From positions 62,001-126,000 of the forward strand of contig JAKSYS010000042.1 in assembly GCA_022925895.1 (NCBI GenBank): DNA of 64,000 bases, in the 5' to 3' direction. Made by a program: the position numbers and the translations under genes. Of the stretch, positions 5,201-38,134 are shown in pieces; positions within the stretch are counted from its first letter, which is position 1; every line of letters begins with the position of its first letter. This DNA comes from Fragilaria crotonensis. Its lineage: Eukaryota; Bacillariophyta; Fragilariophyceae; Fragilariales; Fragilariaceae. The notes below the pieces were generated by a model. That model searched no databases. It had not been told where the DNA came from and saw only the letters and a program-made list of their open reading frames with translations.

Positions 5201-7245
5201 ATGTCGCATAATCGACGTGGTGGTGATAGGGTCGCGGGCGTGGAAAATAAGACTTCCCCATGCAAGACGTCGGTGCTAAATTTGGGGAAGACACCGCAAG
5301 TGCCAGGATTGCATGATGTGGACGAGAAGAAGGACGCAAATAAACAACTGCCAGCAAAGCGCAACGAGAGGGAGAGTCTCCTGACAAGAAATAGGAGGAT
5401 TATGAGGCTGTTGTCGATGGCAGTTATTCCTGAGGAGAGGAGTGCTTTCAGGCGACGGTTCCGGCAGGCAAGCAAGGATGAAAAGAAGCATGTGAAATCA
5501 GAACAAAGCAATCTGTGCCACGTTATGATGAGTTGGATCGCCAAAGCCTTTCAATGTGAGCCGTTCCAGCTACGACGGGCGGGCGACATGTTCCCCGAGG
5601 CACGGATTGAATCGGAGTTCCTTAACAAATTTTATATTATGGATGTCATTCTGAACCGGGCGCCTTCATCAGCAGCAGTGACGGGGGTGCAGGCTCCATC
5701 TGATCACAGGAAACAACCTGTTGTTGACTGTGACGTGGTCCGACCACTTCGATTGTACCAGCCGGACGACGCTCTACCTGAGAAGGATTATTGTTATAGG
5801 GCTGCTATCCTTTTCTTACCCCAGTGTGGCGTGTTCTACTGTCATAGGGAGCGTCGTAGGGGAGATGCTGGTGTGCCGGGCTCGTTCATAGCCCATGACA
5901 TGAGCTGGCTACGCCTGCAACGTGAGCTGACATGTGGTGGTCGTGAGGTGTCTTACACGTTTGGCAGCGACAGCTTTGTGAAGCGTTTATACTGAGCGTA
6001 CGGGCCATCGTGTCTATCGTGATGAGCATGACTTCAGCTCTGGTTGGCACTTCCTTGATGAGAATCACCGCGTGTCGGCGTGGAGGATTTCCACTGGGAG
6101 AACGCACCATTCCCAGCAGAACCGAGTCATCTACAGGGCTGTTCAATGCCACGATGTGGATGGTCCCAAGTTGGCGCCTGATTTATTACAGGGCTACAAC
6201 AACTTTGGCACCTGCCCTTGCGACTATCTGGCTGCCGAGTACCAACAGCGGCTTTCTTCTTCTTCCAGTGCTAGGAAAGATGGACGGCACTATGTTGCCG
6301 GGTATCTTCACTACCAGCTGCCTGATTCTTGTTGGATCATCGATCCCGTGGACAACCACTTTGTTGATGTGATGGTTGATGTCGACACGGTTGGTAACGG
6401 GACAAGGAATCGCCAGTCTGTTGTCATGATCCGGAATGTCACTAAGATCAACACTGACAATGACCACATCGGATTGCTTGAGCGTATCACGTCGCACAAC
6501 GCGGAGCTTCGGAAGGTGGAGGGTAAGGGACATGCATGCAATAAATGTGAGGATCTTGGGACGATGCATGCCATCGGAACAAGAATACCACTTGGAGGGG
6601 TGGGCACGCCGGCTCCGTACTCTGCAAACGGGAAGGTTCCGGGGGATGCCCTTCGTGATTTAGTTGTTGACTTGGCGAGCCTTGGGAGTCGCTGCTTCCC
6701 GACGGTGTACTCGCTCCGTTGTTAGGGACGTGGAGGGGGACTCCGGCATGCTTCCAGTTGTGCCAATGGGCGGTGAGGCTCTCACTGATACCGAAGATGC
6801 TGACGAGGCGATGGATGGGCATGATGTGGAGCTTGATGACGACGAATCAATTGTCCATGAGAAGGCTCGGGCAAAAGTTGAGCGTTGCCGAAGGGTCGGG
6901 TACACCATCGACATGAGTATCAACCTCGGGAACGCGTCGCACTTCGATGTGCATGACGCGTCCCCAGGCTACAGTGTGTGGACTGAGGAGGTGCCTGGCC
7001 GTGGTGCCAACTTTTTTTTTGTCCTTCCAAATGTATATGGAACAAAACCTGATGGGCGGAGCACCTTCAGTGGCATGGCGGTGAGGCTTGGCCATGGCGT
7101 GGCCATCAGCTGGAATGGCCGCGTGATCCGTCATTGTACATCCGTTTCAAATTGTACGGATGCCTGTGTCCACCAGCAGCAGACATACTCAATGCATCTC
7201 TCAAGCAAACCAAGATACCAAGGCATTCTATTCTGGCATATATGA
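5201..7245 (+). pseudogene. Broken multicopy-type gene; C-terminus like a 2OG-Fe(II) oxygenase
   Basis: Three frames join into one protein of roughly 680 residues: 5201-5995, then about 6000-6720, then about 6690-7245. The first join needs removal of a single T just before the TGA at 5995. The N-terminal part is basic and unrecognised; the middle has a CDYLAAEYQQRL-type segment and CNKCEDLG; an acidic linker follows. The last part contains SHFDVHDASPGYSVW, FFFVLPNVYG and then LGHGVAISWNGRVIRHCTS. That arrangement (H-x-D, then a distal His in RHC) fits the double-stranded beta-helix of 2-oxoglutarate/Fe(II) oxygenases, including those carried by some eukaryotic transposons. The fold call is inference; the frame breaks are seen. 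The surroundings (MULE and YR relics) favour a mobile or multicopy origin. Confidence 0.5.
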
Positions 7246-7759
7246 TTGGAAGACGTAGTGCTAGGTTTGCAGCACTGTTTTGCAACATCCATAAAGTCAC
7301 GACAAGTCACCTTACTCTTGTTGGTGCAAACTGAATTTGTCTTATTGACATTGCATTTTTGTTGTTGTTGTCTTCTGGTCAGGTTGTGGGTTGATGCACA
7401 TCACAACATTGCCTTCACCAGCAGCATTAACAAAAATCTTGAGAAGGTCCATCATCATCACATTCATCTTCACCTGTAAGGTGTAGTCTACTGGTGCTGA
7501 CCAAATAATAACACATCAACAAGTTCCTGGTGACAGACCATGATGAAAGGAAAGTGGTGCAATCTGGGTTTGGGGAGGATGTTAAGAGTGGCTGGACATG
7601 GAAGTTTGTAATCAACAAGCTCAAGCCTGAGCATTCATAAGGAGAGCACTATGCGACGACTCTCCGCTCCGTCTCTCACTTCTTTTGTCCAATACATGGC
7701 AGTAGTACTCTAAAGATTTTGTTTGTTCCTCACAGAACTTGAATCCTCGCTTTGACAGC
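7246..7759. other. Spacer between two broken genes
   Basis: Short frames only. It may contain more of the minus-strand transposase relic that follows, but I cannot recognise it here. Confidence 0.4.
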
Positions 7760-26370: not shown

Positions 26371-26563
26371 TACATCATACATCATACGGGCTACCCAGAC
26401 AGCAAACTGCGGACACAAACACGATGCTGCTCCACATGACTAAACGCTACTAGTAGTACCAGGTTCACCCCCGTTCCATTGCCTAGCTATGCATTACCGT
26501 AAGACCCAGGTACTTTAACATTCCGAAGCGCTGCGCAGACTACCGGTAGTCATTGTCGGAAAC

Positions 26564-27517
26564 ATGACAAGTGACAAACGAGGATTCACGTTCGATTTTG
26601 CGCTGGACGTTGGTGCCATCCCGGTACCGGCGGTCGGAACAAACCTGCTCAGCATTGCCCGGGATGAAAGAGGACGGAGTGACTTTGAGTTTTTGAAGGA
26701 CATTTCAGCGTTGATGAAGGAAGTGTCATCGCAGACTCTTGATTCAACGATTGCCGTCCAGCTGTCTGATGTCCAGTCGTTGGTGAAGGTGCTAAACCCA
26801 GCGACAAGCGACGAAATGATAGTCGACGAAATAGAGAGAGAAGGAACTGATATCATTCCTGGTAGGTACGAAGGAGGTCTCAAGATTTGGGAGTGTAGTT
26901 TAGATCTTTGCCGATACATCTGGAGCCAGAGAGATTGTATGAAAGTAGGCTACGCACTAGAGATTGGTTGTGGGCATGGATTGCCAGGATGTTTATTACT
27001 TCGACTTGGTATTCAAAGTGGTTCACCTACCAAGGTATTGTTTGCCGATTTGAATGATTTTGTCCTTACGGGTGTTACCATACCCAACGTTATCTTGAAC
27101 ACAAAAGGCTTTCCGCTGGACCACGTTGCAAACTCAGTCGTGTTGGGTGCCGGCGACTGGCTGGAAATGTCACGGCGCCTCGCACAAGGTAACCATGAGA
27201 TCCCGCAGCTTCCTAGCGGTGGTCGCTTTCATCTGGTACTTGCAGCAGAAACAACGTACACGACTGAATCATCGGAGGATACTGCCACTCTGCTTGCTAA
27301 GCATGTAGCGATAGATGGCATGGGGCTCGTCGCAACCAAACGCTACTACTTTGGTTGCGGTGGAGGATCAGATGCGTTGAGAGATTCTTTATCCGCCCAG
27401 CAAGTGATAATCGAAGGAAGATCATACATACTTCAAGCGAGTACAGTAGAGGTGTTCGATTGTGGATCTGGTAATATTCGGGAGCTTCTAAAAGTGGTAC
27501 TTCAAGTGGTGCCTTAG
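26564..27517 (+). CDS. METTL18: METTL18-like protein-histidine methyltransferase
   Basis: 317 residues from ATG 26564, uninterrupted. Residues 102-115 (YEGGLKIWECSLDL) are the hallmark of METTL18/yeast Hpm1, followed by the SAM motif ALEIGCGHGLPG (131-142), then FADLNDFVLTGVTIPNVILN with an acidic residue for the ribose, and FHLVLAAETTYT, the family's post-II block. In animals and yeast the enzyme methylates a His of ribosomal protein L3 in the 60S subunit. N-terminal ~95 residues are charged and not conserved. Length is close to the family norm. The 3' untranslated region is followed within 240 bp by the YR retrotransposon. No intron. Confidence 0.85.
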   Translation: MTSDKRGFTFDFALDVGAIPVPAVGTNLLSIARDERGRSDFEFLKDISALMKEVSSQTLDSTIAVQLSDVQSLVKVLNPATSDEMIVDEIEREGTDIIPGRYEGGLKIWECSLDLCRYIWSQRDCMKVGYALEIGCGHGLPGCLLLRLGIQSGSPTKVLFADLNDFVLTGVTIPNVILNTKGFPLDHVANSVVLGAGDWLEMSRRLAQGNHEIPQLPSGGRFHLVLAAETTYTTESSEDTATLLAKHVAIDGMGLVATKRYYFGCGGGSDALRDSLSAQQVIIEGRSYILQASTVEVFDCGSGNIRELLKVVLQVVP

Positions 27518-27755
27518 TTCTCACAAATCCTCTCTGACGATGCTGTGTGACTGTGTGACTGATGAACGAACCTGGGCATCCAAAATACCTGGGTACAATA
27601 CTAGGACTAGTTATATACAAGTACAAGTACCTGGTAACATGAATGCTGCCAGGTACAGTACCTTCCAGGGTCGCAAATTTCGGTAGACTACCCGGTATGC
27701 GTATTCGTTGTGAAATGTGAAGAGATCTCTGGATTGAGCATCACTCCCTTCGCCC

Positions 27756-28043
27756 TTACATGGTCTGGTATGAGAGCACGGTACTGTGCCTCCAGCGCTA
27801 CTAAACCAGGATCACGACAGTAGCCCAATTACATGGACGCAACGGTCGGGACTATCGGCTATTTGCATGAATACAATTCGTACCGGATAAGGAGACAACC
27901 GGAGTCACGGTTGAACGGAACCCAAACGTGAAATCGCCGATCTAAGCTGGAGTGGAAACTTTGCACATCGATCCATCAACTTGAATCGACAGTGCCTTTC
28001 CAACCCAGCTTCTAAGTCAATAGCGTACTAATCGTTTAAATTT
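27756..28043 (+). repeat. Split direct repeat A1
   Basis: From TTACATGGTCTGGTATGAGA to GCGTACTAATCGTTTAAATT(T). Matches A2 with small indels (for example ACACATCG there, ACATCG here). It ends 6 bp before the Gag ATG, so the 5' leader is almost entirely repeat A. Confidence 0.9.
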
Positions 28044-28048
28044 ATTCA

Positions 28049-29815
28049 ATGGCTCCCATTGTCAGCTTCGCAGGGGATAACCCTGCACCTACCAAGTGGA
28101 CGGACTTTTACGCCCGAAATCGGACCGATAGGGGCCCGTTCCAGACTCTTTTCGAAACGAACTTTGCAGCAATGGCAAGGAGGACAGAAAGCCACCTCAG
28201 CAACGTCACCAAACTAACCGAGACTATCACAGGGAGTGACTACGGAAATATGCTGATGGTCCCCGGGAGGAGAGGAACAATGCAGATCCTCCACCATGGC
28301 TTTGCATGCAACACGGAGGACGGGTTCGTACTCGCGTTCGCGCACGGAAACCTCGGGGACACCACCTCGTTCAAGACGGTCAATCGAGACGACATGGTCG
28401 CACCAGCAGCATTGGAACCCGTGGAGCTGGGAGATGATGGTCCAGCCCGAGCGTGGAGAGTCCCGCGACTGGATAACATGATGGCCGCCGAATCACCAGA
28501 AGAATTTACGAACCTCGAGGCCGCCGACAACACAATATTGACGCGAATCCCTAACCACTGCCTAATCACAGCCAGCACTTTCGAAGAAGTCGGAGGAGCA
28601 AAAGTGGTGTCGGCCAAGGATCTGGCGTTCAAAATCATAGAAGCCTTTCAGGCCGCGGCGGCAGACGACGATGAGATCAGTATTGAACGCGAAGCCGAAG
28701 CGGAGGGCCTGGAGGACACATTGGCATTCTTGTGGGCGTCCGAACAAGGGATCCTGGCGGAGGTCCGATTGGAAGACGTTCCCGAGAACACCATGATGAA
28801 CCATCTGATCAGGGGAGTTAGGGGAGAATCATAACTGGAACAACAAACCTCCGAGGGCGAAACCCAAGACCCGACAACGCCTGGGGAGGGTAGTGCCAGC
28901 ATGCAGATGATGGCGGCGTCATCCCAGAGCATGGTTGCCCTTCTCAGTCGGTTCCACGAGGGAACGGAAGAAGACCGCAGAAAGAAGGAATCCGAGAAAT
29001 CCATCCTCAAGACGATGGGACCGACGCAGAGAGGTTTGTTCACATCACTCTGCACCCGGCGGATGAACGTCGAGCCAGCTATGACAGAGTTCATGCGGAA
29101 CCTCACCACGAGCACAACGCCCCAAAAGGCACTCAACCTGATCCAGTCAGAGACGCGGGACTGGGAAGGGACTTTCTCAGTAGGAGGATTTCACCGAATG
29201 CTCTCGAACGGATTCCTATCGCAGGACCCCAATCGCGCAAACCCCGGCGGGTTCACCATCTTCATGTTTCACCCCAAAACGGTGGATCTCGGCACAAAAG
29301 GAGGGAAAGGTGGAAACGAACTTCTCCGAGAGTACCTTGGAATGGAGGTCGACGAAGCAACCCTGGAATTCTACATGAGGCAAGGGTTCTATACCCCAAA
29401 CACTCCGCATGACCTTCGAGTACAACTCCAAACGGCGCACGACACGCTCGAACTCCTAACGTGCGATGGGACCATTGCGGGAAAGGGACTCGCCTACGTG
29501 CTGGATGCGAGCCGCTGGGCGCGGATGACAACCATCCTGAACGACCGTTTCAAGTCAGAAAAAGATTTCGGAGCAAAGTTCTGCTACTCACTGGACCGGA
29601 ACCTTCAGACCTTCTTCAACAAGGTCACACGTTGGGACGACATCGCCGCCGACGGTCAATCCCGGTACCTTGTTAACAAAGCCGAGGAACTAATTGAGCG
29701 CCTCGAAGACGGTCAAGGTCTCAATGTCGTCCTCCCCGCAGCGCTGAGTCACCCAACGCCATCAGCCGACAAACCAAACGAGTCGCGGTGGGGATCGGAA
29801 CGCCAGAGAAAGTGA
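28049..29815 (+). CDS. Gag-like ORF of the YR retrotransposon, one in-frame stop
   Basis: From ATG 28049. The frame stays the same to 29815 except for one TAA at 28832-28834, so the 261- and 304-codon parts belong together. The N-terminal part is of mixed charge (with SKTVN-, PVELGDDGPARAW-like stretches); the C-terminal part (28901 on) has GPTQRGLFTSLCTRRMNVEP, DWEGTFSVGGFHRML and a folded-looking alpha-rich region, as expected for a capsid-forming ORF1. No database family comes to mind. The stop could be read through, be a mutation, or be a base error. The frame ends in TGA at 29813 and coding continues in the -1 frame. Confidence 0.65.
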
Positions 29816-30165
29816 CAAAGAAGAAGAAAACGGCGACGGCGACCGCCAACCACACCGAATCTTCGAACTCGTCCGTCAACCACCCTAACAAGGAGCCCGT
29901 GACAGACTGGACCCTGCCCTCTGGAGTGGACTTTCTCGACCTGTTCGGCACCAAAATGCCAGGCCTCAAAGGGTGGCCAGTACTCCTGGACACCCGAATC
30001 CCCAAGCGACTCAACAAAGCCCAGAGGGCTCCCATGTGCGTGCGCTTCCAGTCGACGGGCGTATGCCAACAAGGCTGCTCCCTCGCCCACATCACATCCA
30101 GCGCCATGTCCGAGACCGCTCGAGCGACGGCCACCGCTCGTTTTAAGGCCGTGTACGGCGCCTGA
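29788..30165 (+). CDS. Zinc-finger end of Gag, -1 frame
   Basis: The frame has no upstream ATG of its own (the apparent first codon is GTG), so it is probably reached from the Gag frame by a -1 shift at the AGAAAGTGA just before 29815, or the two are one frame with an indel in the A run. It starts with a Lys-rich stretch (EKVTKKKKTATATAN) and ends with CVRFQSTGVCQQGCSLAH, a C-x8-C-x3-C-x3-H cluster able to bind zinc and RNA, as in other Gag proteins. It stops at TGA 30163-30165. Confidence 0.6.
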   Translation: MGIGTPEKVTKKKKTATATANHTESSNSSVNHPNKEPVTDWTLPSGVDFLDLFGTKMPGLKGWPVLLDTRIPKRLNKAQRAPMCVRFQSTGVCQQGCSLAHITSSAMSETARATATARFKAVYGA

Positions 30166-30276
30166 AGGCGTCGGCCATCGGCGTCCGCCCCCTTCACGAC
30201 TGATGGCCCCACCTTCTCACGCCGACCACCCTCGCCGCCCACCCCCACCCCCCGCTCCCTCAGGACAGATCATTCA

Positions 30277-31242
30277 ATGGCTCGAAGGGAACAAGGGATG
30301 GGGGAAGGAAAACGAGAACGAGGAATGAAGGGAGGGGGACGACACGGCCCAGATCCCAGTACGGAATCCGCCAGGAAACAACAGGAAGGGAGGCGTCACG
30401 ACCCACACTCCAGTACGGAGGTGAGGGAACGTAAAGTTGGGAGGACTAGTATGGGAACTCCTACGACATGGGGAGGAGCGAACAGCCTGACAGATTCCGG
30501 TACGGAAACTATTATGACGTCGGGAACCGGACCAGCCAGTAAGGCAACGCTAAGTCCGGCAAGGGCCAGTACGGCCCTACGCGCTCCATCGACCACCCAG
30601 GGCCAGTACGGTCTCAACGACACCACGGAATCAGCAGGATTAGCCTCGACGAGCCGGGACTCGTCACACACGAGGCCAGGTCCGAGGAAAGTCGTGCCCG
30701 GGGGACACACCGACCCGGAAGGCCGGAACACAACACAAGAGGACCTCCCCCGACCGACCACGACTATGAACGTCGGTCGGGGGGAACCCGAAGGCATAAC
30801 CGGAAACCGGGTGACAACAGCTGCTAGCGCCACCCCTCCTGTGGGGGCGGGGAGGGACCGCCACCAGGAGGACCCGACCTCGGAGGGCAGGTTCAGAGCC
30901 GACGCATTGGAGGCCCGGCGCGCCCGACTGAGGTACGAAGCGTTACTGGAGTCAACCGACGCCACCGGGGGGGACCCGCGGATGTCGCGGGGTGAATCCC
31001 CCCAGCCGGTAGGGGGCAGTAGCCGGATCGAGAGGGTGAGCGCCGCGGAACTGGTAAGGTCCCTCCTGGGTGTGTCGGCACCCAGCACAGCACGACGGCC
31101 CAGCGCAAACGGCCTATACCCTGGAAAGCCAGGCAGTGGCAAACACCCCGGCGTGTGCCCCTCTCGAGGCGACGAACGTAATGCCAAACGACTCAAGGAG
31201 GCCAACGAATCGGACCGGGAAACAATAGGTGAGTCCCCGTGA
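30277..31242 (+). CDS. Low-complexity ORF between Gag and Pol
   Basis: 321 residues from ATG 30277, rich in Arg, Gly, Thr, Ser and Pro, without recognisable domain. It may be a basic nucleic-acid-binding linker. At DNA level the word (C/G)AGTACGG recurs about every 60-120 bp (for example near 30357, 30412, 30569, 30604), which could be a structural or binding repeat. The stop TGA (31240-31242) shares its last base with the ATG of Pol (TGATG), an arrangement used for stop-restart translation. A 389-codon open frame on the opposite strand is taken as a by-product of the GC-rich composition. Confidence 0.5.
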   Translation: MARREQGMGEGKRERGMKGGGRHGPDPSTESARKQQEGRRHDPHSSTEVRERKVGRTSMGTPTTWGGANSLTDSGTETIMTSGTGPASKATLSPARASTALRAPSTTQGQYGLNDTTESAGLASTSRDSSHTRPGPRKVVPGGHTDPEGRNTTQEDLPRPTTTMNVGRGEPEGITGNRVTTAASATPPVGAGRDRHQEDPTSEGRFRADALEARRARLRYEALLESTDATGGDPRMSRGESPQPVGGSSRIERVSAAELVRSLLGVSAPSTARRPSANGLYPGKPGSGKHPGVCPSRGDERNAKRLKEANESDRETIGESP

Positions 31243-33345
31243 TGTTCGCCAGCGAGAAAGCCACCTCCCGGGATGCATCTCTGTTCTTCCCAACTCCAGT
31301 CGTGGGTCCCTGCGACGATTTCGAGCCACCGGACTGGTTCCTGGCGGCGATCAAGAAAATATGCGCTGATCCTCGATAGCGCCAACGAAGCCCCCAGTCC
31401 GGTTCGAGCTCTCAGAAGAGGCTTCCGAACACAACGCAAGTGTGCTGAGAGCGCTGGACTTTGACTTGGGAAGGTTGATCCGGGACAACAGCTCCTCCAC
31501 GCTTGGGTTCGGGTCGGAGTTCCGCCCGGTGGGACAGCTCGGACCCTGATTGGAAGGCACCCCACTTCCCTCGACTTGCGAGCCTCCTAAGCGAAGGGAT
31601 GCACTACGTATTTGTCAGGGACTTAAGCTCCGAAGAAAAGAGAGAAGAGGTGGCAGCCATGCTTGCCCGGGAAACCACAAGTCAGCGCAGCTGGAACGGA
31701 GCGAGTGAGAGAACTCAGCCAAGGACGTCGCCCACGGATTTACAATACCTCTGCCCATCTCGGTGGTCACGTTGATCCCAGGAGCAATGGTGCAACCGCT
31801 AGGGTTGGTCCAACAATGGTCTATCGACCACGACGGCGAGCGGAAGATCAAGTATAGGTTAACGCAGGACCTGAGCTTCTCCACCAATCGAACCCGAGAG
31901 CCGACCTCGATCAACGCGCGGGTCAACATGTCGGCGTACGTGGAGATGGTGTACGGGTGGTGCTTCCCGCGGATAGTCCACTTCATTGTGTCCCTGCGGT
32001 CCCAGAACCCGACCTTGCTGATTCTTATCAGCAAGTACGATTACAGTGATGCGTATAGGCGAATAGCCCACAGCGCAGAGGCGGCGACCCAAACCATCGC
32101 AATCAACGGAGAAACTGCCTTCCTTTCTCTTCGTCTCACCTTCGGTGGATCACCAAACCCACCAACCTGGTGCATGTTCTCGGAGTTGGTGACCGACCTG
32201 GCGAACGAGATAGGGCAGTGCGATGACTGGAACCCTGACGAAGTCCGGAGCCCAGCACAGCCACGGACGCCGGAACCCCGACGCCTATCGGCAGACATCC
32301 CCATCGTACAAGCCCGGAGAATGGCAGTGAGCATCCCACCAACCAAGGCAGGAGGAAGGGTGGACGGATTCATTGACGACTTGATCAATGTATTCCTGGA
32401 CACCCCCGAGAACTGCCGAAGACAACCCAACATTGTCCCTTGGCGATGCACTCACCAGTCGCCCACACGCGGCGACACTGAGGAGCCTATCCCACGCAGA
32501 CCGATCCTCTCCATCCCAAAGCTCATAGCGGAGGGCCGGCCGGAGGAAATCCAGATAGTCCTAGGGTGGAGGATCAATACCGGCTTCTGGAGATATCCTC
32601 CCGGACGACAAGTACCTCGCCTGGTCGGGAGACCTCAGGCGTCTTCGTGCGTCGAAGCAGTGCCCCGCGAAAGAGCTCGAGACCCTGGTAGGTAGGCTGA
32701 ACCACACAGCTTACATCATACCGAACGCTCGCCACTTCATGAGCAGGATTCGAGCAGGACTCGAGTCAGGACCGAGGGGGAAGGGCAGGGGCGGGAGGAA
32801 AGTCGGGACCGAAGCCCTGTCAGACCTCCTGCTGTGGGAAGGGTTCCTCACCCACGCCAACAAGGGCGTATCCATGAACCTCCTGACCACCCGGGAGCCG
32901 GACAAACTCTGCTGGTCCGATGCCTGTCCATACGGCCTCGGAGGGTACAGCCTGTCTGGAAGGGCCTGGCGATTACGGATCCCGAGTTCGAGCCCAATCT
33001 TCGGGCACAAGGGAATCAACAACCTTCTCGAGTTCATCGGAATGGCCATAAACATCTGGCTTGCCTGTCTCGAATCGGAGGGAGGCGAGCATTGCATCTT
33101 GGCAATCGGCGACAACACATCAGCAATAGGATGGCTCCACTACTCATCCCGATTGGACACGAGAGGGGACGACCAGAGCGCCCACTTGCTAGTCGCGAGG
33201 AAGATAGCGACTCTGTTGATCAACTTTCGGTGCTGTCTGGCTTCACAGCATCTGAAAGGCGATCTCAACATTGTAGCCGACCTGCTCTCCTTCGCCGGGG
33301 AAGCCTTGAGGGGGAAGAGACATCCAATAGCCGCAGACATGCCAG
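31242..33345 (+). CDS. Pol, reverse transcriptase and RNase H part
   Basis: Starts at ATG 31242 (MFASEKATSRD). A TAG at ~31378 and frame changes near 31390, 31545, 31690 and 32590 break the reading, but the domains are clear in order. 31390-31550: FELSEEASEHN, FGSEFRPVGQL. 31560-31680: FPRLASLLSEGMHYVF. 31763-32420: KYRLTQDLSF, ISKYDYSDAYRRIAHSAEAA (first catalytic Asp block), FLSLRLTFGGSPNPPTWC and GFIDDLINVF (FIDD in place of YxDD, about 32366-32395). 32600-32735: connection with VGRLNHTAYIIPNARHFMSR. 32739-33300: RNase H with WSDACPYGLGGYS, NNLLEFIGMAINIW, IGDNTSAIGWL and HLKGDLNIVADLLS. The family copies its RNA and removes the template strand. As read, it is not translatable in one piece. 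Confidence 0.8.
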
Positions 33346-34695
33346 CAAACGACGAGCTAACAATTCGATTTCTTGCCTCGTACCCATCACAGGTACCGGC
33401 GAACTTCGTCATCTCCCAACTGCCGGAAGAGATGCTATCCTGGACTACGCAAGTGCTGCGAATCGCAGAGTCATCTTTGACGCAAGGCAAGAGGGCAGCA
33501 ACGAATCCTTCGACAGGACGTGGAGAAGGTGGAAAGGTTACTGCCATCACGTCGGGTACGATGCTGACCCCGGCCTCGCTCTGTTATCCGACAACGAAAG
33601 GAGTCTCTTCATCAGGGCCTTCCTCGACTTCTACCGACAAGCAACTTGGGACGCAGGGGGCAGACCTACGGGCAATCGTCGCGAACCAGTGGTCGCAAGT
33701 ACTCTGCGCAAAACCACAAGCAACCTGGCTACGGCGTTTCGGATCAATTTCGGGAGCAGCCCCCTGCACCTCAAGGGATCTCCGAACTTGCAACCCTTCG
33801 TCCGAGCCTGGCTGAAGGCCTGTGACAACGTCGACCCTCCAAAAAGGAAGCAAAAGGCCGTGACCCCTCAACTGTTACGAGCGATGTATGAGCAGGCGGG
33901 GGCAGGGACGGAGTCCGGGAAGGACACCCGTGAGGCAGTCATTGCCGAGGTCGCGATCGCAGCTTATTTTTCGCAATGAGGGCATGCGAAATAGCGAAGA
34001 CAGAAACACCAGGACGAACGAAGGCCGTCAGACTCCGAGGAGTAATCTTCCGAGACGCGGCACACCGAGAGATACCCCACTCCTCGTCAAACGAGCTCCG
34101 AGGAGCAAGGAGGGTAACAGTGACCTTCGAAAATCAGAAAAATGGTCTCAAGATGGATAGGAGAACCCAGGAGCGAACAGGAGACAGCATCATGTGCCCC
34201 GTTCTGCGATTAGCCTCCCTTGTTCGGAGGATCCTGGATAGAGTGCCGAATTCAGGACCGGACACGCCGATCAGTTCGGCACAGCAGATGACCGGCACTA
34301 CGGCGGAAATCACAAGCGGCGAACTCCGATGGAGTCTGAGATCAACGTGTCTGAAAGGAGGAGGAGCCGGAACCTTCGGATACGGGCCTGGCGAGATAGG
34401 AACAAGGTCAATACGATCGGGAGCCGCCATGGGATTGTTCTTGATGAACCACCCGGTGGCAAAGATCATGATATTGGGTCGATGGTCGTCGGATGCTTTC
34501 CTCGATTACATTCGACCCCAAGTCCTGGAATGGACAAACCAGTTGAGCCGAGACATGATACACAATGACTCCTTCTTCGACGCAACGGACTCACGGAGGA
34601 CAAGCTCGGGTGACCCTCGAACGAGATCAAAAGGGGGCACGGTGCTCGCGAACGGATCGAGAAAGAAAGCTCATCGGATGCACTTGCACCACTAA
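33346..34695 (+). CDS. Pol, tyrosine recombinase part
   Basis: Two frames. 33400-33979: FDRTWRRWKGYCHHVGYDAD (core-binding domain), ALLSDNERSLFIRAFLDFYR, KQKAVTPQLLRAMYEQAG, ending AIAAYF. One T missing in a T run at 33970 would continue in the second frame with AMRACEIAKTETPGRTKAVR, RVTVTFENQKNGLKMDR, TRSIRSGAAMGLFLMN and LGRWSSDAFLDYIRPQ. The catalytic Arg box, the second Arg (SIRSGAAM), the Trp of GRW and the nucleophilic Tyr (DYI) are present; the His that normally stands two before SLR/SIR (GxHSLR) is Arg here (GTRSIR). The enzyme inserts the circular DNA copy. The C-terminal ~45 residues are basic. The stop at 34695 is 40 bp before repeat B1. Confidence 0.8.
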
Positions 34696-34734
34696 TGGAG
34701 GTTGACAGCTCTGAGCAAAGAGATAGTTCAATGG

Positions 34735-34943
34735 CTGGACCATCCAACCTCCGGGGAGTTGGAGCTGGAGTTACTGCCGAGGAACTCACCTCGCCAAGCC
34801 AACGTCAGCATACGACCAACTTATACTAGCCAGTACCAGTAAATTATTTGCCGTGCCCGACACTACGGAAGTACTTGGGCAACCCAAACGGGAACAAGAG
34901 AGAAGACAGACTGGTTTCGAAGTGGCGCAGCGAACAACTTCGT
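34735..34943 (+). repeat. Split direct repeat B1
   Basis: From CTGGACCATCCAACCTCCGG to AACAACTTCGT. Matches B2 (35252-35462) except for a few single-base differences, mostly in base-run length. Confidence 0.9.
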
Positions 34944-35237
34944 TACATGGTCTGGTATGAGAGCACGGTACTGTGCCTCCAGCGCTACTAAACCAGGATC
35001 ACGACAGTAGCCCAATTACATGGACGCAACGGTCGGGACTATCGGCTATTTGCATGAATACAATTCGTACCGGATAAGGAGACAACCGGAGTCACGCCGG
35101 TTGAACGGAACCCAAACGTGAAATCGCCGATCTAAGCTGGAGTGGGAAACTTTGCACACATCGATCCATCAACTTGAATCGATTGTGCCCTTTCCAACCC
35201 AGCTTCTAAGTCAATAGCGTACTAATCGTTTAAATTT
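34943..35237 (+). repeat. Split direct repeat A2
   Basis: Directly follows B1 and matches A1 at the left end of the element. The B1/A2 joint (CTTCGT|TACATGG) shows where the two circle ends meet. Confidence 0.9.
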
Positions 35238-35251
35238 CCCCAAGCCCACCC

Positions 35252-35462
35252 CTGGACCATCCAACCTCCGGGGAGTTGGAGCTGGAGTTACTGCCGAGGG
35301 AACTCACCTCGGCCAAGCCAACGTCAGCATACGACCAACTTATACTAGCCAGTACCAGTAAATTAGTTGCCGTGCCCGACACTACGGAAGTACTTGGGCA
35401 ACCCAAACGGGAACAAGAGAGAAGACAGAATGGTTTCGAAGTGGCGCAGCGAACAACTTCGT
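35252..35462 (+). repeat. Split direct repeat B2, right end of the element
   Basis: Second B copy; ends at AACTTCGT, after which the sequence diverges from the B1/A2 joint (here CTTGATAT). Confidence 0.9.
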
Positions 35463-35861
35463 CTTGATATACGATTCCGCTGAATTACTGGGTACCTGGT
35501 ACTTGTATGTTGTATGTACCTGGCAGCTGGCAGTATGTATGCGTACTGGTACTACTATCATACGTGCTCACATAGCGCATAGTACAGTACTAGTAGCCTG
35601 TACCTGGTAGTACTGGGGACAGCGGACTCAGGACTCCAGTACGTCGTACCTTGTACAGTACACGTATCCTGTGACTTCATACCGTAGTGCATTAGTACGT
35701 AATTCGAAGCGCCAGCAGCAGTCCGTGAATTCCTGATGCCAAATCTTGACGTCGTTTTTCAGGTGAGACGGGGAGATATCTGAGATCTGAGGGTGGCCTC
35801 ATAAGTTGTCGTCCGTCATCATTGGCCATCATCGACGAAATCGGTCGAAATTAAACAAACC
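35463..35861. other. Spacer with GTAC-rich palindromes
   Basis: 35490-35690 holds GGTACCTGGTACTTG and many related words. No supported frame. It is the 5' flank of the gene at 35862. Confidence 0.6.
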
Positions 35862-36806
35862 ATGAACCGCGTCGCCTTTTTCTCCTTGCTGATCGCAACA
35901 ATTGTGTTGTGTGTTTGTGGTCGAAAAGATCGCAATGTTCCACATGGCCATTTCGGGATCCTCAAGGCCCACGCACCTGGTCCTTTTGAAGTGGAACTAC
36001 AAGCATCAGATGAACAAGTTCTTAGCGCCGGAAAATCCGTCATGAAGCAAGTAATGCCTAAGCCGGGAGAAACGGATTCGGCTGGAGGAGTTTCTGCGTT
36101 CAAGACATTGAAGCCCCAAGGGAAGCCGTTTGGAACCAAATATTGGGAATGGATGAGTATGAAAAGAAGGTTGCCAAGGTCCTAGAGTGCAAGAACTACG
36201 AAGTTAGGAAGAATGAGAATGGAAGCATCACGATAAAGACACGCCAAAAGCTAGGGGTCTTGCCAGGATACTCAGTGAGTACTTCACGTCGCTTGCTATT
36301 GGGTTTATATCTCATGCAAACTATTGCCAATCACTCATCGCGTATCACACCTCTTCTCGCAGTATGAGAACTACTACGATCACACCTATGAACCAGAAAA
36401 GACTCTCTTACATGGCGCCTTGATTACGAGAAGAAATCTGATTTCGATGACGTCGCTGGTCATTGGCATGTGGAAGATCACCCAACGAAACCGGTGAGTG
36501 CGAAATATGTGTGATTTCCGCAGCGATAACGCCCCATGATGTTTCTTACGGTGCACACAGGGATGTACAGAGTCTTCTACGCTTGTGATATTAAGCTAAG
36601 CAGTCCTGTCCCCGGTCCTGTCTTGAATTTCATTAGCAAGTCCGCCTTGAAACAAGCGACTGCCTGGGTTAGAAGGAGAGCGAATGGATCCTACTGCCAC
36701 CATCCCTTCAGAGTATGCGGCTAGCGGCGCTGTTGCTAGCACACCGGAGCCTCAGCCTGCAGGACGTTTCGGTGGTTTCGCCAACAGAGTTAACAAACGC
36801 AGATAG
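35862..36806 (+). CDS. SRPBCC/START-like lipid-binding domain protein
   Basis: From ATG 35862; residues 1-20 are a signal peptide (FFSLLIATIVLCVCG). Exon 1 to 36274, intron 36275-36362 (GTGAGT...CGCAG), exon 2 to about 36491, intron about 36492-36560 (GTGAGT...CACAG), exon 3 to TAG 36804. The domain begins (frame 2) at FCVQDIEAP and VWNQILGMDEYEKKVAKVL, continues with GSITIKTRQKLGVLPGYS, YENYYDHTYEPEK, SDFDDVAGHWHVEDHPTKP and ends VFYACDIKLSSPVPGPVLN and SKSALKQATAWV. The pattern (VWxxL..., long beta-strands, final amphipathic helix) fits the SRPBCC fold, which binds lipids or other hydrophobic ligands. Single-base frame changes occur near 36095, 36400, 36565 and 36670. Tail-to-tail with the kinase gene, 32 bp apart. 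Confidence 0.65.
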
Positions 36807-36838
36807 GTTGGCCTTAATCGTTTCATATAATAACGATT

Positions 36839-38134
36839 TTAGAAGCTAAATGGACCGAAGCCACTTGTTAGGAAGAAGGGATGTAGCAGAACTTGCGTGA
36901 GGGTCGGCCGCTTCTTTGGGTCCTGTTGAAGGCAAGCTCTGATCAGATCTCTCATTTTATCGTCTGGTACATCACTAGTATCAGCTGTGAAGTTTGGATC
37001 TCTGAGAACTTTCGTTATCTCAGACGGGTTCTTTCCCTTGAAGTAAGTTTTCCCCGTCGACATCTCGTAAAGTAGCATCCCTAAGGACCAGATATCATAG
37101 CTGTATTCGAGAACGAAATACGGGCCGTCTCCCGCCAAAAACGCATCAGCGAACTCGGGCGGACATGCTTCGGGGCTGTAATCCACAGGATTTTCACGGA
37201 GCGCCATAGCAGACTCCAGGTCGATTCCTTTGATTTCTAGGGCTTTAACGTCCGTCACGACGAAGTTCTCAGCCTTCATATCTGTCCACACTAGATTCGA
37301 GGAATGCAGGGCTTGCAAGCATTGCACAGCGGCTACGGCACATTCTCGTAATACCTTCCTTGCAACGGTCCATTCTGTTCAATAAATGTCTTGAGATCCA
37401 TGATGCCTCGTTCCATAATAATCGCAGATTGTTTGACGAACCCTTGCTGTCTCCGCTCGTCCGTAAAATTGAAGGAACTTAACAAATCGCCCTCGGTTGA
37501 GCCCCGATGTCGCTTTTCGTAGTTCTTGATTCTCGCCGCAATGCTTCGACATTTGCGGAAATCTTCGCACATAGAGGCTCGCCGACCGGCAAACCGTTTC
37601 CATCGTTCTGGTAGCAAGTGAAGATCGTGGCTTTACCAGACGTACTCCTTCTGGGCCTCCCGCCAGAAGGTAGTTACCATTTCCCACTAAAAGGCCCGTG
37701 AGTTTATATTCTGCTTTGGCCTTGGCGAGCGCCTGTTTGAGAGACTTTTCGTCAATTTGAGGTGCGGCGACGTTCGGAGCGACTTTCCCGTTGGCCTTGA
37801 GCTGCAAGACAGAAGGATTTCCTAATTTGTATTTGGATCCCGACGTCGTTTCGACGATTTTTTTTGACATGGCTTCTTCTGGGTTTTCCAAGGGGCTTGT
37901 TTTGATAATATCACCGTCTGCGAGCACTGGGTGGTTACTAACCCTGCCCACGAGTTCTCCGGACTTGAGAATCTTCCAATCATCAATGATGGGCTGCATT
38001 CGGAGGGTCGAGCTAGCTGGAATTGCGTGCTTCCGTGCTCTTTGACTTCCAAGCGAGGAATGGAAAGCTGCAGTTCCATGGAGAATCGAGAAGGCTATCA
38101 CTGTCACACTCAAGAAGGACAACATCGTTCTCAT
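36839..38134 (-). CDS. Plastid-targeted protein kinase with degenerate HRD and DFG
   Basis: From ATG 38134: signal peptide MLSFLSVTVIAFSILHGTAA followed by FHSSLGSQ, the plastid-presequence Phe. About 37900-37640 is a linker with a Gly-rich stretch (LLVGNGNYLLAGGPEG). Frame changes near 37640, 37560 and 37345 interrupt the N-lobe; IIMERGIMDLKTFIEQNG follows as hinge. The C-lobe (37327-36839) is clean: LVWTDMKAENFVV has Asp, Lys and Asn of the catalytic loop but Trp-Thr instead of His-Arg; GIDLESA has Asp-Leu-Glu where DFG is expected; SPEACPPEFAD, YDIWSLGMLLYEM and QDPKKRPTLTQVLLHPFF are normal. It may be a weak kinase or a pseudokinase regulating plastid proteins. Confidence 0.7.

Follow-up and report, generated by a model that had tools for sequence, protein, structure and literature searches.

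An inverted repeat at the repeat joint of a putative Ngaro-like retrotransposon from the diatom Fragilaria crotonensis

Retrotransposons that carry a tyrosine recombinase (YR) are said to have been sorted into their groups by Goodwin and Poulter in 2004 and by Poulter and Butler in 2015. The subject here is a putative element of this kind, taken from its sequence to extend over positions 27756-35461 of a 64,000-nucleotide stretch of Fragilaria crotonensis DNA (the window; contig JAKSYS010000042.1, here C372). The closest described systems are the Ngaro elements, which share with it the order A1-[open reading frames (ORFs)]-B1A2B2, the division into Gag, reverse transcriptase/RNase H (RT/RH) and YR as three ORFs, and the lack of a methyltransferase (PMC8547959, PMC12477816, PMC3783388); three such ORFs are described for the Ngaros of Cafeteria burkhardae (PMC8547959). 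In DIRS-1, ORF2 and ORF3 overlap; circular complementary DNA (cDNA) has been reported, and a review describes the scheme of replication as still lacking full experimental proof (PMC5633606). Ectocarpus has 15 Ngaro and five PAT-like families (PMC12477816), a review of marine stramenopiles records DIRS/Ngaro-like elements (PMC3145265), and one diatom genome paper uses a combined Gypsy/DIRS1 class (PMC8613185); no detailed description of diatom YR retrotransposons was found in the available text of the literature searched.

Apart from its B end, the element is an unexceptional representative of a known order, from a host group that has been sampled little. Elements of its kind are broadly known; what goes beyond this is a probable small hairpin at the joint end, kept across families while its letters change, which is a possible clue to insertion. 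That the element is a YR retrotransposon (DIRS order, Ngaro-like) and that the inverted repeat at its B end is real are together held with good confidence, whatever the mechanism. All elements compared come from this single genome (62.1 Mb in 881 contigs), and they include clade 1, to which the window element belongs, clade 2 and a third clade.

The inverted repeat at the B end

The predicted order A1-[ORFs]-B1-A2-B2 was borne out, with split direct repeats that align over their length; all features of the element given here are on the forward strand. The left end, A1 (27756-28043, starting TTACATGG), is identical to A2 (34943-35237) at 286 of 288 aligned bases with four gap openings (7 nt), and B1 is identical to B2 at 207 of 209 with two one-base gaps (34735-34943 aligned with 35252-35462). 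The original prediction had called the repeats young and about 97% alike; the youth is upheld, and the percentage holds if indels are counted, the identities by substitutions alone being 99.3% for A and 99.0% for B. Its readable B1/A2 joint is also there: B1 (34735-34942) directly abuts A2, which a C-rich spacer of 14 nt (35238-35251) separates from B2 (35252-35461), the right end, ending in CTTCG. T34943 is the only base common to the aligned B1 end and the A2 start, which looks like chance, because the joint of the relatives is exactly CTTCG|TTACATGG and their right flanks begin with other bases. The A2-B2 spacer is identical or similar, and likewise C-rich (ccccaagcccaccc; ttcccacccacc...), in the listed relatives of clades 1 and 2 and in L083, though the flanking repeats differ, and in its place the third clade has CCATGC-(T/A)CT-GCATGG before B2.

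Directly before the joint, both at B1|A2 and at the right end of the element, stands an inverted repeat. The copy that ends B1 and abuts A2 (34918-34942) has the arms CGAAGT (34918-34923) and ACTTCG (34937-34942) with 13 nt between them, and the copy that terminates B2 (35437-35461) has the same arms at 35437-35442 and 35456-35461. When 34-nt B ends were searched for stems of 5-8 base pairs anchored at the joint, with one G.T pair allowed, 28 of the 29 elements proved to have one, as did 16 of the 17 distinct ends, compared with 119 of 4147 interior positions (2.9%); in the mirror control, none of 21 distinct A starts had a stem anchored at the A start. A stricter test that excluded G.T gave a stem at 61 of 3857 interior positions (1.6%). 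The exception among the 29 is the B1 copy of L079, whose B2 copy reads GGAATTTATTTCG as its relatives do. The 29 derive from 33 3' ends examined, there being no B pair in L073, L084, L087 and L089; L045 was omitted as the same copy as L039, and no usable pair was present in L036, L051, L052 and L055, nor in L040, L042 and L044. The joint was moved back by 1-5 bases in nine elements in which identity ran beyond the stem, and that of L076 was set at the stem.

The arms differ between families. Those of the window family are CGAAGT-13-ACTTCG, the number giving the bases between them, and other sets read CGAAG-12/15-CTTCG (L049 and L050), CGACG-16-CGTCG (L043 and L088), CGACGC-10/20-GCGTCG (L053 and L085) and CGACG-19-CGTCG (L086). 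Clade 2 has CGAAGT-2-ACTTCG, CGAAGGC-3-GCCTTCG and CGAAGC-2-GCTTCG, the third clade has CGGAAT-2-ATTTCG with one G.T pair, and L083 has GGCCTATC-3-GATAGGCC, a stem unrelated in sequence to the others. The loop is thus 2-20 nt long across families and 10-20 nt within clade 1. This bears on whether the repeat is an ordinary double-stranded site, in which two YR protomers would occupy the two arms at the joint of a circle and no strand would fold. The repeat does abut the joint, and in YR core sites the crossover typically lies within an inverted repeat; the explanation is tenable, if somewhat doubtful. Besides the varying arm spacing, it is opposed by the position of the junction, which falls outside the arms, at the stem's outer base, whereas in the usual double-stranded YR site it lies between them; a binding site of fixed spacing fits worse than a hairpin.

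Among eight distinct arm pairs (L083 being left out of this count), three of six base pairs were changed on both sides, and the arm changes are comparable at homologous places because the left arm is preceded by a conserved TTTCGA in clade 1 and a conserved ACTCG in clades 2 and 3. Pairing was found in 93.8% of cells, compared with 80.9% in shuffles, and the covariation score was 0.399, compared with 0.165; neither value was reached by any of 500 shuffles, nor was the observed number of cells changed on both sides. When the arms were slid, 30-50% of cells paired and the score was at most 0.098. From the placement exactly at the joint, the compensated changes and the free loop length, we infer that the B-end repeat is probably a hairpin connected with the joint.

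Several observations weigh against this. Under strict Watson-Crick pairing, a perfect stem at the joint is missing from the six elements of the third clade (L076-L080 and L082). Two measures of covariation do not exceed the shuffles: 48 of 500 reach the observed count of pairs with changes in both arms (3, compared with 1.7 in shuffles), and 196 of 500 reach that of further pair types (5, compared with 4.3). The left arms were located by complementarity, which inflates the counts toward pairing; the elements are related and come from one genome; and three pairs among the 29 share flanks and are probably one insertion each (the window element and L041, L072 and L075, L080 and L082). Minimum-energy RNA folds of three single ends had no excess stability over shuffles (z of 0.59, 1.46 and 0.12), and the fold predicted for the L069 end differs from the joint stem.

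The folding energies also bear on the main alternative, that the hairpin acts in RNA at or near the 3' end, where it would prime reverse transcription, direct a template switch or direct 3'-end formation. The stem would form the last bases of any RNA ending at B2, and one stem type has a G.U pair. However, the identical hairpin is also internal, at B1, and the folding energies are no better than those of shuffles; this alternative is judged fairly unlikely. If the hairpin is an RNA signal, it marks where reverse transcription starts or switches.

Junctions and a possible route of insertion

The B|A joint is constant within each family, as in CTTCG|TTACATGG, and the flanks vary. Insertion junctions are sharp, with neither a target duplication nor a consistent core common to joint and target, and comparison of the flanks confirmed the predicted absence of a duplication at the window insertion. 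The first base of the right flank was A at 15, T at seven, C at two and G at one of 25 sites (L076 left out), an excess of A with a binomial p of 0.0004 relative to the frequency of 0.264 in the window outside the element, in a test chosen post hoc; this apparent preference was set aside. The right flank of L078 (C87) begins with TGGCA, the same five bases that open the A repeat, and no other of the 25 sites does so.

On the published models of PAT, Ngaro and DIRS elements, the element RNA would be reverse transcribed, the internal B1A2 joint would serve as a template from which the ends are rebuilt, and a circle with a single B|A joint would form, which the YR would recombine into the genome. 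The B-end inverted repeat could then mark the recombination point as a hairpin in single-stranded DNA or RNA; less probably, it would prime or end reverse transcription there. A more specific proposal, made by analogy, is that the YR acts on a single strand in folded form: the hairpin at the B end of the cDNA or circle would be cut at its base, and one strand would be joined to a target with which it need not share a core. This would explain the sharp junctions and the absence of both target duplication and target homology, but it is put forward as a long shot. Were it true, the recombinases of clade 1, which have arginine for the usual histidine, would be a specialised form.

Coding frames, classification and copies

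The coding layout was established with L039 (C542), a relative with open frames whose A and B repeat pairs are each 100% identical. Its Gag-like ORF1 (698 amino acids) has a CCCH-like knuckle, found by pattern; its ORF2 (1271 amino acids) comprises a low-complexity N-terminal part, then RT, then RNase H; and its YR frame (446 amino acids from stop to stop) opens 66 nt past the final RNase H motif and overlaps ORF2 by 622 nt. The original prediction had a separate low-complexity ORF between Gag and Pol, making a special three-ORF layout, and this did not survive the comparison: the stretch at 30166-31242 is the counterpart of the N-terminal part of the L039 ORF2, so the layout, as read from the sequence, is the described one of Gag, RT/RH and overlapping YR.

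The claim that all Pol domains can be read is right in that stretches of Gag, RT, RNase H and YR are legible, but only piecewise, across several frames. The broken Gag region (28049-30165), compared by eye with the 698-residue frame, consists of pieces at 28049-28831, 28835-29812 and 29698-30162, with an in-frame stop at 28832-28834 and a frame change, and its last piece contains the CCCH-like knuckle. The RT region (31709-32692) is partly shifted in frame and contains KYDYSDAYRRI, LRLTFGGSPNPPTW and FIDD, which we take to be motifs A, B and C. Within the RNase H region (32565-33400, the end approximate) are SDACPYGLGGY, LLEF, GDNTSAIGW and ADLLS, presumably the RNase H motifs. The YR region (33362-34692) occupies two frames, 33362-33973 and 33829-34692, with RSIR where HxxR is usual and a putative catalytic tyrosine within SSDAFLDYIR.

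In clade 2, L044 has Gag and Pol joined in a single frame of 1604 amino acids, and the equivalent frame of L069 has one stop. The first ATG of the YR frames falls at residue 145 in L039 (ORF3, 6245-7582) and at residues 125 and 228 in L044 and L069, so that in all three the N-terminal part has no ATG start of its own. Given this late ATG, the L039 YR may be expressed, for example, through a frameshift from ORF2.

Clades 1 and 2 are about 35-38% identical in RT and 33-35% in YR, the latter with E values of 4e-44 or better, which links the clade 1 YR to that of clade 2. Two clade 2 proteins match PF00589 (E of 2.5e-4 and 6.2e-4, both below the curated cut-off), and the L069 YR matches a PHROG integrase (E of 1.4e-4). 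In the fetched loci, a pattern search for YR ends of clade 1 gave eight sequence types, that of the window element among them; all read RSxR at the place where clade 2 (L044 and L069) reads HSLR. RT and RNase H were recognised in an alignment of 12 sequences through what we take to be their invariant motifs. Other searches count against these assignments: the clade 1 YR of L039 has no match in Pfam or PHROGs, and the PDB matches of the YR profile (best E of 0.16, mostly fluorescent proteins) were dismissed as chance; the RT has no significant match in Pfam (RVT_1 included), PHROGs or a PDB profile search; and AlphaFold gave the isolated window RT piece a predicted local distance difference test score of 32. 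Alignment by hhalign with RTs from the same genome (six Gypsy-like, three odd and one like a long interspersed nuclear element, labelled by eye) gave no significant match, and a scan of viral contigs found no relatives.

Matches to the YR at 29-31% identity lie at C548:117719, C186:14805, C196:40214, C735:17739 and C9:86211, on contigs without an RT among the matches listed (122 of 203 candidates scored); these five possibly carry Cryptons or another group of YR elements. In L064, L065 and L066, frames of 1225, 1515 and 1520 amino acids encode an RT-like family that has the motifs LTNYDATACYDRI and GFVDDC and matches RVT_1 weakly.

The element combines RT/RH, recognised by motifs only, with a YR and has no DDE integrase in Pfam scans of the frames (a weak negative, Pfam also missing the RT), which is the make-up of a YR retrotransposon. 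Its direct repeats are split, with the internal ones behind the YR: the order B1-A2-B2 was found in 29 of the 33 3' ends, and A1 is also present in the window element, L039, L041 and L069. A Pfam scan at E<=1, weak alone because Pfam also misses the RT, detected no methyltransferase. The motif [DNS]PP[YFW], characteristic of methyltransferases, is absent from eight frames of L039, L044 and L069. The split direct repeats behind the YR, the lack of a detected methyltransferase and the 66-nt distance from RNase H to the YR frame in L039 point to a Ngaro-like rather than a PAT element, a structural filing by the published key (PMC4157794).

A PAT-like element was rejected because the methyltransferase that it requires was found neither by motif nor by Pfam, here too a weak scan alone. 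The inverted terminal repeats of DIRS1-like elements were also sought, and no inverted-repeat pair of at least 20 nt was present at window positions 26500-37000, nor one of at least 24 nt in L040, L042, L043 and L044; as for their 3-bp target core, three or more shared bases were seen by eye in one of 17 left flanks (C155) and one of 25 right flanks (C87). The hallmarks of a long terminal repeat (LTR) retrotransposon, namely one direct LTR pair, a DDE integrase and a target duplication, are lacking. That the element is nevertheless an LTR retrotransposon with rearranged ends agrees with the position of Gag and RT/RH before the terminal repeats, but split direct repeats in two clades, the YR frame, the recurrent B1-A2-B2 order, the lack of a target duplication and, more weakly given the missed RT, the lack of a DDE integrase in Pfam scans make this extremely improbable.

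Other copies in the genome were found by RT, YR and A-repeat matches. The RT had at least 127 and the YR at least 101 matches, counts that are lower bounds and include fragments, and two A repeats on the same strand were present on 11 contigs, at a distance of 6.9-7.7 kb on nine of them and 13.5-13.7 kb on two. The clade 2 element L069 has the repeat order of the window element, with A repeats of 111 bases (99.1% identical) and B repeats of 177 bases (100%); no repeat pair was found within the 8.5 kb fetched for L044. The flanks of the window element occur only on C372 and C278; on C278 the insertion sits between the same flanks, colinear on both sides apart from larger indels, and most simply this copy is the other haplotype. 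A third, independent insertion (C338, L042) is 98.8% identical to the window element. No empty site was found, three joined flank pairs giving no contiguous match across the joint in the genome.

The sequence of the window element is that of a degenerate copy, broken at several places. It is evenly balanced whether these breaks stem mostly from errors of assembly or sequencing or from decay. Over 8461 columns, an alignment of the window and C278 copies has 15 mismatches but 53 gap openings; a second alignment has 33 mismatches and 51 gaps, of which 35 fall in homopolymers. This excess of small indels suggests that some of the breaks may be assembly errors. The independent C338 copy is less lopsided (37 mismatches and 35 gap openings over 7157 columns), and the adjacent host frame at 26519-27517 is open, both of which favor decay.

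That host frame is lysine-methyltransferase-like (PF10294, E of 4e-6), and the element begins about 240 bases behind it. A protein kinase frame (PF00069, E of 9e-23) lies on the opposite strand at 36839-37378, about 1.4 kb past the element, and further frames lie between the two at 35805-36367. Elsewhere in the genome, the silicon transporter family PF03842 has 19 Pfam matches (best E of 4e-193); three of its domains are fused within a single frame of 1456 amino acids at C97:29749-33762, and two within one of 1008 amino acids at C771:21664-24330. Contig C880 has 14 RVT_1 matches between about 8.9 and 91 kb, with several long open frames (655, 743, 755, 786 and 1177 amino acids), and may be an organelle genome with many RTs encoded in introns.

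Comparison with known systems

A terminal hairpin is not reported for YR retrotransposons in the available text of the literature searched, including PMC6681497, PMC8547959, PMC3783388, PMC5633606 and PMC11172284, and the words "hairpin" and "palindrom" are absent from the available text of the Ngaro papers PMC8547959 and PMC3783388. The Cafeteria Ngaros differ from the element described here in that their RT matches PF00078 and their YR has HxxR (PMC8547959), whereas here the RT has no Pfam match and the clade 1 YR has RxxR. PAT-like elements share the split direct repeats and a zinc-knuckle-like Gag motif, but a methyltransferase is expected in them, and the nematode form Pat1 has its internal repeats between the methyltransferase and the YR (PMC4157794). 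DIRS1-like elements share the YR, the overlapping ORFs and, in the model, a circle intermediate (PMC3266345, PMC5633606); their terminal repeats are inverted, and their circle junction of 3 bp recombines with the same 3-mer in the genome (PMC3266345), unlike the element here, whose direct repeats are split and whose joint has no consistent core in common with its targets.

The recombination of YR retrotransposons into the genome rests largely on models, and a covarying structure exactly at the joint offers a concrete site at which they can be tested. Integron integrases are YRs whose substrate is a single strand in folded form, and they exchange one strand (PMC3053210). The likeness to the integron attC site is by analogy only, since integrons are bacterial and unrelated to the element, and strand folding here is conjectural. 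If the B-end hairpin is a folded recombination site, it would be a mechanistic link between eukaryotic retrotransposons and integrons.

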